Below are positions 17,579 to 52,622 of a DNA stretch of 52,937 bases, one piece after another (position 1 is the first letter of the stretch; every line of letters begins with the position of its first letter). The translations under genes and the position numbers were made by a program. The notes under the pieces are model-generated. The model was not told the origin of the DNA. It ran no database searches and saw only the letters and a list, made by a program, of their open reading frames with translations. Source of the DNA: Planctomycetota bacterium (lineage in GTDB: Bacteria; Planctomycetota; UBA1135; UBA2386); contig VGXW01000003.1 of the NCBI GenBank assembly GCA_016873195.1, forward strand, positions 1 through 52,937, written 5' to 3'.

Positions 17579-19975
17579 GTGCGCTCCGTCCTCCTCTGGT
17601 CGTGCCTTGCCGCCGCCGCAACGGCGCAGCAGTTCCTCGGCTACCCGGTGTTGCCCGACGGCTTCGTGCACGGCACCGCGGACGTCGACGCCGACGGCTT
17701 CCCCGACCTGCTCGCGGTGCGCAACAACTCGTTCGTCTGGCATCGCAACGACGGCCAGGTGCGGTTCGGCGCCGCGGCGACGCTGATCGCCAATCCCGAC
17801 ATCTATCTCGCGAGTGCTGCGGCCGACTTCGACGGCGATGCCATCGCTGACCTCGCCGTGGCGTGTGCTGCAGGGACAGCGATGGCGGTGCACATCGTGC
17901 ATCGGAGCGGCGGCGCGATCGCGGTCACGCCCGTCGCCACGATCGCCACCAGCCCGTACCCCGCAGCCGTCGTCGCACTCGATCTCGACGGCGACGGCGA
18001 TCGCGACCTGGTCATCACGACGCAGGGCCAGCCCGGCAACAACCTCTACGCGCTGCGCAACGACGGCGCGCTGTCGTTCACCGACGTGAGCAGTGTCTGG
18101 TTCGGCGGCCTGTCGCTTTCGCAGATGAGCGACGCCGACGCGGTGGACGTCGACCACGACGGGCGCCCGGACCTGCTGGTGTCCGCGTTCACATTGCGCC
18201 TGCTGCGCAACCAGGGTGCGACGTTCGCCGACGAGACGGCGACGCGCCTGCCCGCGAACCCGGCGCTGAATCCGGCCGTCGGCGATCTCGACGGCGACGG
18301 CGATGACGACCTGCTGGTGACGTACTTCTTCGGCGGCGTGGGCCTGCACTTGTGGCGCAACCAGAACGGCGTGTACGTGGACGACTCGGCGGCGTCGTTG
18401 CCGCCGGCACTGTGGACTGCGCCCGGCGCCGGCTTCCAGCAACTGCTCGACGCCGACCTCGACGGCGATCTCGATGCCGTGCTGTTCCTCGCCGCCGTAC
18501 CGGGGAACTACACGGTCGCACTGCTCGCCAACGACGGCGCCGGCCACCTGCTGCAGCAGACGACGCCCGACCTCGGCGGCAGCCTGCCGCACGGGGTGCT
18601 GCTGCCGCCCACCGACCTCGACGGCGACGGCGATCGCGACGTCGTCGCGACGGGCAACATGACCGGCGTGCCGTGGACCCTGCTCGGCGACGGCCATGGC
18701 TCGCTGCGCTTGCCGCTCGGCCACCTGCCGCTCGCCGCCAGCGTCTCGCTCGGTGTGCCGGTCGACATCGACGGCGACGGCGACCTGGATCTCGTCGGGC
18801 CGAACGGCGTGCTGCGGTTCTCGCCGGGGCCGCGGTGGACGCGCGTCGGTTCGTTCACCGCCGAGGTGACGAGCCCTCGCCAGTTCGGCGACGTCGACGG
18901 CGATGGCGACCTCGACGTCGTGACGGGGACCGTCGCGCTCAACGACGGGCAGGGCAACTTCACGGTCGCCGCGGGCTCGGGCTACAGCCCGCCACCGCCG
19001 GTGGTCACGGCACTCGTCGATGTCGACCTCGACGGGGACCTCGATATCGTCGCGTCGCAGGGCTGGTTTCCGAACGACACGCTGAAGCTGCACCAGAACC
19101 TCGGCAACGGCACGTTCGCACCGGGCACGGTGCTGATGACGTTCGGCCGCAACACGCTCGACGTAGGTGACTTCGACGGCAACGGCTGGCCCGACATCGC
19201 CTGCGGCGAAAGCTACTCGTACGTGCTGATGGGCACGGGTGGCGGCGCGTTCACGACCAGCAGTCTGTTCGGGCTCGGCGTGTTCGGGGGGCGGCTGCGC
19301 GCGCTGCAACTCGGTGGCGCGGGTCCGCCCGATCTGCTCGTCGACGGCTTCCCGGTGTTGCCGCTGCGCGTCCTGCGGTGGCAGGCCGGTGGGTTCGCGG
19401 ACGTGACGGCGAGCGTGCTGCCGCCGAACGTCGCGCCCGGCGCGCTCGCGATCGGCGACGTCGATGGCGACGGCGACATCGACCTCGTCGGGCGCGAACT
19501 GCTGCGCAACGACGGGACCGGCGCGCTCACCGTCGAGCCACTGCCGTTCGCGGCGCCACCCGGCGGCCTGCTGGCGGACATCGACGGCGATCGCGACGCC
19601 GAGCTGGTGCTGGCGCGCGACGTGCTGTGGAACGGCGAGCGCCACCTGACTCTGCCGCTCCAGGCGCGGATCGGCGCCGGCCTGCGCATCGAGCTGTCGG
19701 CGCTGCCCGGCCGCGCGCAGCCGGGCGACTTCGCGGTGCTCGGGCTCGGCCTGCAGCGCCTCGTGCCGCCGCTGCCGGGCCCGCTCGGGCAGCTGCATCT
19801 GGGCCGCCTCGACGCGACGATCGGCCTCGCGCTCGCTGCCAGCACCGGCAGGGCGGTGCCCGTGCTGCCGGTGCCGACCGTACCGGCGATCGTCGGTGTC
19901 GACGTACATCTGCAGGCGCTGTTCGGGCCGGCGATCCTGGCGCTGAGCAACAGCGTCACGACGCGCATCGAGTGA
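17579..19975 (+). CDS. Secreted FG-GAP/VCBS repeat protein
   Basis: Repeated D-x-D-G-D-G-D/R-x-D-L motifs (DLDGDGDRDLVITT, DVDGDGDLDVVTGT, DIDGDRDAELVLA); GTG start gives signal peptide VRSVLLWSCLAAAATAQQ. Confidence 0.9.
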   Translation: MRSVLLWSCLAAAATAQQFLGYPVLPDGFVHGTADVDADGFPDLLAVRNNSFVWHRNDGQVRFGAAATLIANPDIYLASAAADFDGDAIADLAVACAAGTAMAVHIVHRSGGAIAVTPVATIATSPYPAAVVALDLDGDGDRDLVITTQGQPGNNLYALRNDGALSFTDVSSVWFGGLSLSQMSDADAVDVDHDGRPDLLVSAFTLRLLRNQGATFADETATRLPANPALNPAVGDLDGDGDDDLLVTYFFGGVGLHLWRNQNGVYVDDSAASLPPALWTAPGAGFQQLLDADLDGDLDAVLFLAAVPGNYTVALLANDGAGHLLQQTTPDLGGSLPHGVLLPPTDLDGDGDRDVVATGNMTGVPWTLLGDGHGSLRLPLGHLPLAASVSLGVPVDIDGDGDLDLVGPNGVLRFSPGPRWTRVGSFTAEVTSPRQFGDVDGDGDLDVVTGTVALNDGQGNFTVAAGSGYSPPPPVVTALVDVDLDGDLDIVASQGWFPNDTLKLHQNLGNGTFAPGTVLMTFGRNTLDVGDFDGNGWPDIACGESYSYVLMGTGGGAFTTSSLFGLGVFGGRLRALQLGGAGPPDLLVDGFPVLPLRVLRWQAGGFADVTASVLPPNVAPGALAIGDVDGDGDIDLVGRELLRNDGTGALTVEPLPFAAPPGGLLADIDGDRDAELVLARDVLWNGERHLTLPLQARIGAGLRIELSALPGRAQPGDFAVLGLGLQRLVPPLPGPLGQLHLGRLDATIGLALAASTGRAVPVLPVPTVPAIVGVDVHLQALFGPAILALSNSVTTRIE

Positions 19976-20369: not shown

Positions 20370-20675
20370 GTGGTCAGGCTCTACCCGACACCCCCCGAAC
20401 GGCTCGTCGATCAGGCCGGGCGTCCGTACTTCCTGTGGGACTCCGACCTGACCCTCGCCGACTTCGTGCGCCGGCTCGCTGAGTCGCCGCCGGACGGGCG
20501 GGCCTACCTCGTCGGCAAGCTCATGCGGCAGGCCCGGCCCGACGACGTGTTCACCTTCGTCGGCGTCGACGAGATCGTCGCGCTCTGGCCGCGGCTCCTG
20601 CGCTACCTCGGCAAGCAGCGGCCGTTCTGGTCCTGGTTGCTCCGCTACTGGGGGTATCCGGTCGATGCTGCTTAG
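20370..20675 (+). CDS. Small protein preceding nucleotidyltransferase; putative antitoxin-like partner
   Basis: VVRLYPTPPERLVDQAGRPYFLWDSDLTLADFVRRLAESPPDGRAYLVGKLMRQARPDDVFTFVGVDEIVALWPRLLRYLGKQRPFWSWLLRYWGYPVDAA; overlaps the next ORF by 11 bp. Start could be ATG 20331 or GTG 20370. Confidence 0.7.
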   Translation: MVRLYPTPPERLVDQAGRPYFLWDSDLTLADFVRRLAESPPDGRAYLVGKLMRQARPDDVFTFVGVDEIVALWPRLLRYLGKQRPFWSWLLRYWGYPVDAA

Positions 20676-21309
20676 CGACTTGCAGGCGCGCGTGCTCGAA
20701 CTGCTCGCCGGGATCGAGCCGCCCTGGACGTTGACGGGAGGCGCCGCGCTGGCCGGATTCCATCTCGCGCATCGGACGACCCGCGATCTCGACCTGTTCT
20801 GGCATGGGCGCGATGCGATCACCGATGTGTGGCGGGAGGTCGCCGCGCGCCTGCGCGCCGCCGGACTCGAGGTCAGGGAGCTGCGTTCGTCCCCCGCCTT
20901 CTGCTCGTTGCAGGTGGTGCATGGCGGCGAGACGGTGGTCGTCGACCTCGTGGCCGAGCCCGTCCCCTGCATCGAGCCGCCGCTGGCCATGCCGCACCGC
21001 GGCGTCCACATCCTCGTCGACACGGCCCACGAGGTCCTGGTCAACAAGCTCTGCGCGCTGCTGCACCGTTCCGAACTGCGCGATCTGATCGACATCGCGG
21101 CCCTGGTCGCCAACGGCGGCGATCTGGAGCGGGCACTCGCCGATGCTCCGCGCAAGGACGGCGGCTTCTCGGCGCTGACCCTCGGCTTCTGCCTGCAGGG
21201 GTGGGCGCTGCGCGATGCCGCGCGCGCGTCCGGGCTGGCGGAGCGGGCCGCGGAACTCGAGCGGTTCCGGGACGAACTCCTGCAGCGCGTGGCGGGCGGG
21301 CAGCCCTGA
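20665..21309 (+). CDS. Nucleotidyltransferase AbiEii/AbiGii toxin-family protein
   Basis: TGGAALAGFHLAHRTTRDLDLFWHG signature; downstream VDTAHEVLVNKLCALLHRSELRDLIDI. Confidence 0.88.
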   Translation: MLLSDLQARVLELLAGIEPPWTLTGGAALAGFHLAHRTTRDLDLFWHGRDAITDVWREVAARLRAAGLEVRELRSSPAFCSLQVVHGGETVVVDLVAEPVPCIEPPLAMPHRGVHILVDTAHEVLVNKLCALLHRSELRDLIDIAALVANGGDLERALADAPRKDGGFSALTLGFCLQGWALRDAARASGLAERAAELERFRDELLQRVAGGQP

Positions 21310-21373
21310 GCCTGCGTACGCCGCAACGCGGCGACACGTCCAGGGCGAAACACGCACTCGGCGCCGCTGCGGG
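21310..21373 (+). repeat. Copy A of a three-copy 3'-UTR double-hairpin element
   Basis: Begins right after the stop codon at 21307-21309: cgtacgCCGCAACGCGGcgacacgtccagggcgaaacacgcactcggcgCCGCTGCGGg; perfect stem CGCCGC-AAC-GCGGCG at 21319-21333. Confidence 0.85.
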
Positions 21374-48249: not shown

Positions 48250-48485
48250 TCGCGACCGGGCTTTCGGCCCGGTGGGGGCAGAGACCTTAGCGGCCTGCGC
48301 GGACGGGTCAAGACTCCGCTGGCAGCGACGGCAGAGCCCAGTGCGCCACCGTGGCGAGAACAGGAGCCCCGAACAGGGGCGCGCCCGCCGGCACACCACG
48401 CGGGAACCGGCGGGACCGCCCGTCTCCGCGGCGGCACGGCCCCGAGGAGCAGGCCACTGCAGGCAGGCCAGCGCTGCCAAGGCAA

Positions 48486-48545
48486 CGCCGCAGCGGCGCC
48501 GAGTGCGCGCTTCGCCCCGGACGTGTCGCCGCGTTGCGGCGTACG
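48486..48545 (-). repeat. Copy B of the three-copy 3'-UTR double-hairpin element
   Basis: CGCCGCAGCGGCGCC gagtgcgcgcttcgccccggacgtgt CGCCGCGTTGCGGCG tacg, 7 bp from the stop codon of the minus-strand CDS ending at 48553. Confidence 0.9.
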
Positions 48546-48552
48546 GGGGGGC

Positions 48553-49134
48553 TCAGTGCTTCGCGACTTCCATCTTGCGCAGGCGCAGCTTCTCGGTGCC
48601 GGCCAGCGCGTTCTTGACCATCTCGTCGGTGAAGGCCTTCTTGTCCTTCACGAAGAGGAGGGCCTTGCCGTTGAGGCCGTTCGGGTGGACCCGGATGACT
48701 CCTTCGAGCTTGCTCAAGACGTCACGCGTCTCGATGGCCGTGCTCATTCAACCAAGTCCGGCGACTTGTGCCTCGTAGACCACCTCGGCCTTCGGCAGTT
48801 CGACCTCGTTGATGCTCTTGACCCGCACCTTCTTGATCCGCTCGTCGGCCAGCGCCTTGTTGAGCGCCTCGACCTCCGGGGGGTGCTTGCCGACGTCGCA
48901 GTAGCCGATGCCGGTGGTGTCGAAGATCAGGTTCTTGATGCCTTTCTGTTTGATCAGGATCGCACGGACCCTGGCGGCCTCGGAGGCCGCCCCTCAACCT
49001 CCCAGTCCGGTCGTTTCGATCTTGAAGAGCTTCTCGGTGCCGTCCTTGGCGGGGGCTGCTGGCGCCTGGGTCTGGGCCAGGGCCGGAAGGGCCAGGGTCA
49101 GGGCAGCGAGCAGCATGCGCGCTGGCGTTCTCAT
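48553..49134 (-). CDS. Putative secreted tandem HMA-like selenoprotein with two in-frame UGA (Sec) codons
   Basis: Single frame of 194 codons: MRTPARMLLAALTLALPALAQTQAPAAPAKDGTEKLFKIETTGLGG(U)GAASEAARVRAILIKQKGIKNLIFDTTGIGYCDVGKHPPEVEALNKALADERIKKVRVKSINEVELPKAEVVYEAQVAGLG(U)MSTAIETRDVLSKLEGVIRVHPNGLNGKALLFVKDKKAFTDEMVKNALAGTEKLRLRKMEVAKH*. UGAs at 48996-48994 and 48750-48748. Confidence 0.75.
48715..48733 (-). promoter_or_regulatory. Candidate bacterial SECIS-like hairpin 2
   Basis: CGAGACG-CGUGA-CGUCUUG, 7-bp stem (one G-U), loop starting 22 nt after UGA 48750-48748. Confidence 0.5.
48955..48973 (-). promoter_or_regulatory. Candidate bacterial SECIS-like hairpin 1
   Basis: CAGGGUC-CGUGC-GAUCCUG, 7-bp stem (one G-U), loop starting 28 nt after UGA 48996-48994. 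Confidence 0.5.
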
Positions 49135-50940: not shown

Positions 50941-50973
50941 GCGCGCATGCTACGCGGCGCGGCGCGATCGAAA

Positions 50974-51037
50974 CCGCCGCAGCGGCGCCCGCGCGCGTGA
51001 TTCCGTCCGGTGCAGGTCGCCGCGTTGCGGCGTCCGG
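50974..51037 (-). repeat. Copy C of the three-copy 3'-UTR double-hairpin element
   Basis: cCGCCGCAGCGGCGcccgcgcgcgtgattccgtccggtgcaggtCGCCGCGTTGCGGCGtccgg, 4-5 bp from the pckA stop codon (51042-51044). Confidence 0.9.
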
Positions 51038-51041
51038 TAGC

Positions 51042-52622
<1,581 letters not shown>

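Follow-up and report, generated by a model that had tools for sequence, protein, structure and literature searches.

The genome of the Planctomycetota bacterium analysed here harbours a family of short repeats placed directly behind stop codons. They probably represent a short, non-autonomous mobile hairpin element that inserts in one orientation 3' of the native stop TGA(G). The repeats are dispersed in at least about 105 copies, with junctions exactly at stop codons, a covarying hairpin and head-to-tail arrays, and both mobility and hairpin structure are well supported. As far as could be found, a small mobile repeat placed at stop codons with such unusual precision is undescribed: a search of the open-access literature yielded no account of one, and an Rfam search of the window (the whole stretch of 52,937 nucleotides analysed) returned only tRNAs, the element itself scoring 20 bits against a cut-off of 47 for an unrelated family. 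Small palindromic repeats are widespread, and their movement and preference for gene ends are poorly understood. Base-exact placement at stop codons, together with clean filled and empty sites, makes it directly testable whether such a 3' bias reflects targeting or selection. The family also provides a natural set of about 90 genes in which a hairpin lies at a constant distance beyond the point where the ribosome terminates.

The original prediction described three copies of a double hairpin behind stop codons of the window, and all three are present within a few bases of where it had placed them, in the orientation that it gave (Table 1). Copies A and B are 95% complementary over 58 nt, well above the background of GC-rich repeats, and the spacer of copy C, which had been described as diverged, is explained by the proximity of this copy to another subfamily. 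The copies are real, but the unit is longer than first described. It spans 70-78 bp, about 77 in general, and is conserved at both ends, with TGAG at the 5' end and, at the 3' end, TTTCCTTGGAAG in type I and TTTCTATYGAG in type II. Sequence conservation begins abruptly at TGAG and ends as abruptly after YGAG or G[A/C]AG (GGAAG). There are at least three subfamilies, in which TGAG is followed by CCCCCGTACGCCGCAACGCGGCGACACGTCCAGGGCGAAACACGCCCTCGGCGCCGCTGCGGCGTTTCCTTGGAAG (type I), GTTCCCACCGCCGCCACGCGGCGACCTGCAACGGACGAAACCACGCACTCGGGCGCCGCTGCGGCGGTTTCTATCGAG (type II) or CTACCGTACGCCGCAACGCGGCGTCTCACCAACCGACGAAACACACCTTCGACGCCGCTGCGGCGTTTCCTTGGAAG (type III). Several sites have head-to-tail arrays with a period of 70, 76, 77 or 78 bp, the first unit of which is nearly always at the stop codon.

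Table 1. Locations of the element copies and associated features (positions without a contig or locus name refer to the window)
Feature	Location	Strand	Remarks
Copy A, TGAG (left target/tag)	21307..21310	+	Stop codon TGA 21307-21309 of the AbiEii-like gene, plus G
Copy A, body, type I	21311..21373	+	Right end decayed after GCTGCGG; covariance model 73.9 bits
Copy A, left arm of the putative long hairpin	21318..21333	+	ACGCCGCA-(AC bulge)-GCGGCG
Copy A, right arm	21362..21372	+	CGCCGC-T-GCGG
AbiEii-like nucleotidyltransferase gene, upstream of copy A	20665..21309	+	Pfam PF08843, E 1.5e-16
Copy B, TGAG	48552..48555	-	Stop codon (TGA 48553-48555) of the upstream small ORF
Copy B, body, type I, complete	48474..48551	-	Ends CCTTGGCAG; covariance model 86.4 bits
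Copy C, TGAG	51041..51044	-	Stop codon of pckA (TGA 51042-51044)
Copy C, body, type II-like	50963..51040	-	Covariance model 62.8 bits
pckA (PEPCK_ATP), upstream of copy C	51042..52622	-	PF01293, E 4.6e-221
Group II introns in element copies	L088:1920-3930 (G000:C83); L115 around 1498 (G000:C143)		Opposite orientations relative to the element
Diverged Y1/HUH transposase-like gene	G000:C96:13186-13947 (L058:1192-1953)
Full integron integrase at contig end	G000:C199:123-1064 (L287)		No attC on the side present in the contig
Canonical attC-like sites near integron integrase genes of relatives	L296:9826-9924 (G024); L297:460-529 (G008)

These three copies are far from being the only ones. In the genome to which the window belongs (G000; 5.51 Mb in 809 contigs, 89% complete), a DNA search with the element gave 51 matches, and a covariance model gave at least 111 at E<1, about 105 of which are convincing; 150 candidates were scored with the model, and this copy number is a lower bound. 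An unbiased 847-kb sample of the same genome holds 22 matches at E<0.001, which extrapolates to about 140 genome-wide. The exact pattern GCCGCNNCGCGGC...GCCGCTGCGGC occurs 73 times, and the reversed control pattern not at all.

The element architecture is confined to one Planctomycetota family, in which 11 of 25 genomes have model matches. In G008, which is sequence-identical to the Planctomycetota MAG SJ402, and in G016, the hairpin is found 11-15 nt past in-frame stops, mainly TGA, with some TAG and TAA, and these copies have the same stems as those of the window genome but different spacer and interior sequences. In four other genomes (G004, G018, G002 and G049), the hairpin is located 46-53 nt downstream of the stop rather than 11-15 nt. 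Several of the loci with this variant (L132, L126, L171 and L174, respectively) have CTCAG, the reverse of CTGAG, just before the hairpin. A scan of several hundred genomes of the phylum outside the family identified nine with single matches, which we attribute to chance since this is the level of the reversed control. Among 17 stretches matched in a contig collection, 11 are Planctomycetota MAGs; the other six (e.g. Luteimonas, Streptomyces and Cupriavidus) look like chance matches. No match to the pattern was found in the viral contigs scanned.

Placement was assessed at 90 sites, one per array, with genes called by a home-made program that relies on codon usage and had been trained on the 847-kb sample (673 genes, 87% coding). 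Rather than being scattered at random, 78 of these sites (87%) begin on the in-frame TGA stop of a coding ORF, 75 of them with zero shift, and none lies inside a called gene. As anticipated in the original prediction, orientation is strongly biased, with 87 of the 90 sites sense to the upstream gene, and the carriers are unrelated genes, about 90 in the window genome. The next gene is co-directional at 45 sites and convergent at 40. All 78 stops are TGA, compared with 551 of 673 (82%) background stops (p ~3e-7). TGAG is found at 66 of the 78, compared with 182 of 551 (33%) background TGA stops (p ~7e-21), a count to which the element itself could in part contribute the G.

How much of this bias can be ascribed to a TGAG target was estimated from the 847-kb sample, in which the tetramer occurs 182 times at stops, 199 times elsewhere in intergenic DNA and 1057 times in coding sequence. 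Of 68 sites starting with TGAG, 66 are stop codons, against 48% expected from stop and all intergenic TGAG (p 4e-19) and 76% expected among safe sense 3' TGAG sites (p 1.4e-6). Much of the bias can be accounted for by a TGAG target plus counter-selection elsewhere, yet 66 of 68 is still in excess. It is conceivable, if rather doubtful, that the insertion machinery itself recognises stop codons or the ends of translation or transcription, beyond a selection-filtered TGAG tetramer. This idea arises from the over-use of stops even among harmless sense 3' TGAG sites, from diverged copies that keep TGA with any fourth base, and from the use of TAG and TAA in related genera.

Comparisons with orthologues show clean insertion behind the native stop codon at three loci. 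At pckA, panB and mdh, the element is present in the window genome only, and the hairpin is absent from 14, 23 and 22 orthologues, respectively, most of whose proteins end at the same residue as the window-genome copy. The mdh locus provides an empty site in the relative G010, where the next gene begins 6 bases past the stop (TGA TCGCGA GTG...). In the window genome, the same two genes are parted by two 77-bp units, 154 bp in total, with both flanks conserved, and the joined flanks read TGAG/AAC GTG..., the slash marking the junction. Insertion was therefore clean and left the coding sequence untouched. Together with the copy number and the stop junctions, these element-free orthologues support the proposal of a module, mobile or amplified, with a fixed position 3' of stop codons.

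The hairpin-forming arms of the proposed double hairpin are borne out, but the element probably folds as a single long bulged hairpin rather than two, which is clearly favoured by cross-genus covariation and also by energy minimisation in several copies. This imperfect hairpin would comprise about 8-9 bp, a bulge of 2-3 nt, 6 bp and a variable apical region, and it starts about 11 nt past the stop codon. Among 24 distinct elements from several genera, the three outermost pairs are paired in 97.9% of cells, with 23 two-sided compensatory changes compared with 6.7 after shuffling (0/500 shuffles) and a covariation score of 0.185 compared with 0.045. The invariant stem bases are partly set by the search pattern, and the covariation rests on these three outer pairs, which lie outside it. 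Covariation is weak when only the window genome is considered, since its stems are almost invariant. In some copies, A and B among them, other folds reach a similar or better energy.

Transposition of the IS200/IS605 type proceeds through single-stranded DNA, keeps the left target, uses a fixed, related right tetramer, generates no duplication and inserts in one orientation. The end structure of the element would match such a mechanism: the left target TGAG would stay outside, the right end YGAG or G[A/C]AG would be carried by the element, and there would be no target-site duplication. Single-strand transposition of the IS200/IS605/REP type, presumably driven in trans by an enzyme, would thus place the element in a single orientation directly 3' of TGA(G) and leave the protein unchanged. 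Copies might then survive mainly at gene ends, since hairpins elsewhere would harm expression. As the spacer between TGAG and the stem varies among subfamilies, no IS608-like guide is evident.

As for the mobilising enzyme, the window genome has a single intact but diverged Y1/HUH gene, which encodes 253 residues with an HLH motif (NDHLHLL) and falls below the Pfam cut-off. No element copy lies beside it on its contig. The RAYT gene that the original prediction proposed to look for is not linked to element copies in this genome, which is 89% complete and may encode another RAYT, and the presence of Y1 genes does not significantly track that of the element across the family genomes (p 0.08). 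In G025, a genome of the same order, there are 65 copies of a Y1/HUH gene. Stretches between neighbouring element copies were searched for an autonomous version and contained ordinary genes (cupin and LexA) and a group II intron reverse transcriptase, and no transposase.

The element behaves like REP or MIRU sequences but fits neither definition. Like REP/BIMEs, it is a short, high-copy, non-coding bulged palindrome found mostly 3' of genes, between convergent or co-directional ones, and REP tags can even supply a stop codon (PMC3733652). The REP/BIME membership suggested in the original prediction does not hold, however. The unit is 70-78 bp, compared with 20-40 for REPs, and 87% of its junctions are exactly on TGA. 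TGAG is separated from the stem by about six bases of variable spacer, unlike a GTAG/CGTC tetranucleotide adjoining the stem, arrays are only head-to-tail with no alternating inverted dimers, and a linked RAYT is missing. MIRUs occupy stop/start DTGA sites and form tandem arrays. They insert at start codons with coupling (PMC12548453). Like the element, they are short repeats that seem to be mobile and whose insertion at a codon boundary hardly affects the gene; in our case, this boundary is a TGA stop at 78 of 90 sites. In contrast with MIRUs, the element targets the stop codon whatever the downstream start, has a strong hairpin and belongs to an unrelated lineage. It also lacks a MIRU-type internal small ORF: units of 70, 76, 77 and 78 bp are not frame-preserving, and there is no ATGA at the right end.

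An alternative to a dedicated transposition system is that the element is first of all a cis-acting RNA, selected as a ribosome-termination structure, 3' stabiliser or terminator and spread by occasional copying. Ribosome-termination structures (RTSs) are stable mRNA structures right past stop codons (PMC7518266), and the element supplies such a structure at a near-fixed distance, which is kept in related genera despite different spacers. In the window genome, the ends of transcription units generally fold strongly just past the stop, where RTSs are located, unlike operon-internal stops. Tight operon gaps are depleted of the element (8/47 compared with 159/419, p 0.004), and it is in mild excess at convergent gene ends (p 0.04). 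Nevertheless, RTSs are a class of unrelated local structures, whereas the element is one repeated, dispersed sequence family whose non-structural interior hardly differs between unrelated loci. Insertions are clean and tandem and comprise whole units with fixed ends, the element is found at only about 2% of genes, and orthologues lack it. An intrinsic terminator, one of the roles put forward in the original prediction, is not supported either, as the terminator scan was negative at copies B and C and the consensus 3' end is TTTCCTTGG or TTTCTAT, with no U-tract. We thus regard an origin as a cis-acting RNA as unlikely. For a mobile element, a role in mRNA stability or ribosome termination is possible, in which the hairpin could act as a ribosome-termination structure or as a barrier to 3' exonucleases. 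The structure past the stop would either benefit the cell or merely make insertion tolerable.

A family of integron-derived, attC-like sites moved by an integron integrase would also account for a single-strand hairpin with a bulge that directly follows stop codons and is oriented with the gene. The window genome has a full integron integrase (439.8 bits), and the element is found in 10 of 14 family genomes with an integrase or a fragment compared with 1 of 11 without (p 0.004; p 0.017 for full-length integrases only), a co-occurrence over 25 genomes that ignores shared ancestry. We nonetheless hold this origin to be very improbable, given the missing R boxes, the boundaries and the location of the element. 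The element consensus has no RYYYAAC/GTTRRRY boxes, genuine attC sites of the same family (G024 and G008) being canonical, and its boundaries are TGAG...YGAG, not a G^TT crossover. Copies are dispersed behind core genes such as pckA, mdh and panB, and the covariance model has no match on the 9-kb IntI contig of the window genome, although this contig ends at the IntI 3' side, beyond which copies may lie. Furthermore, the element occurs in G016, which lacks IntI, and is missing from some genomes that have IntI. The IntI genes of several relatives are also near contig ends, which suggests collapsed arrays on the IntI 3' side. Lastly, TGAG on the left and YGAG on the right of type II copies could be explained by a MITE-like element whose DDE transposase duplicates a 3-4 bp target site (YGAG). 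This is most unlikely, because on the right most type II copies end in CGAG, and those of types I and III in GAAG/GCAG, so that the right end is not a copy of the target, and the element ends have no terminal inverted repeats.

The element hairpins share a further feature with attC hairpins in that both are targets of group II introns, as described for attC (PMC4424553). Introns of class C are known to make use of terminator hairpins and attC motifs (PMC4424553). In the window genome, two element copies, one behind a sigma-54 gene (C83) and the other on C143, are interrupted by group II introns (RF02005, 124.9 bits; RT/maturase TIGR04416, 354.6 bits). The introns are 85% identical over 1.5 kb, and one is antisense and the other sense to the element. 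This suggests that the element hairpins are landing sites for a second mobile layer.

Upstream of copy B, the reading frame at 48556-49080 (- strand) of the window holds two internal TGA codons (TTGLGG*GAAS and VAGLG*MSTAIE). The second, TGA-ATG, may be an ordinary stop/start pair, and the first could be a selenocysteine codon or another gene end. A reading of the element as a selenocysteine SECIS is disfavoured by the frame-breaking unit lengths and by the about 90 unrelated carrier genes. Elsewhere in the window, positions 17676-19608 (+ strand) contain many direct repeats that specify D-x-D-G-D motifs, similar to FG-GAP or calcium-binding motifs, within one large protein.
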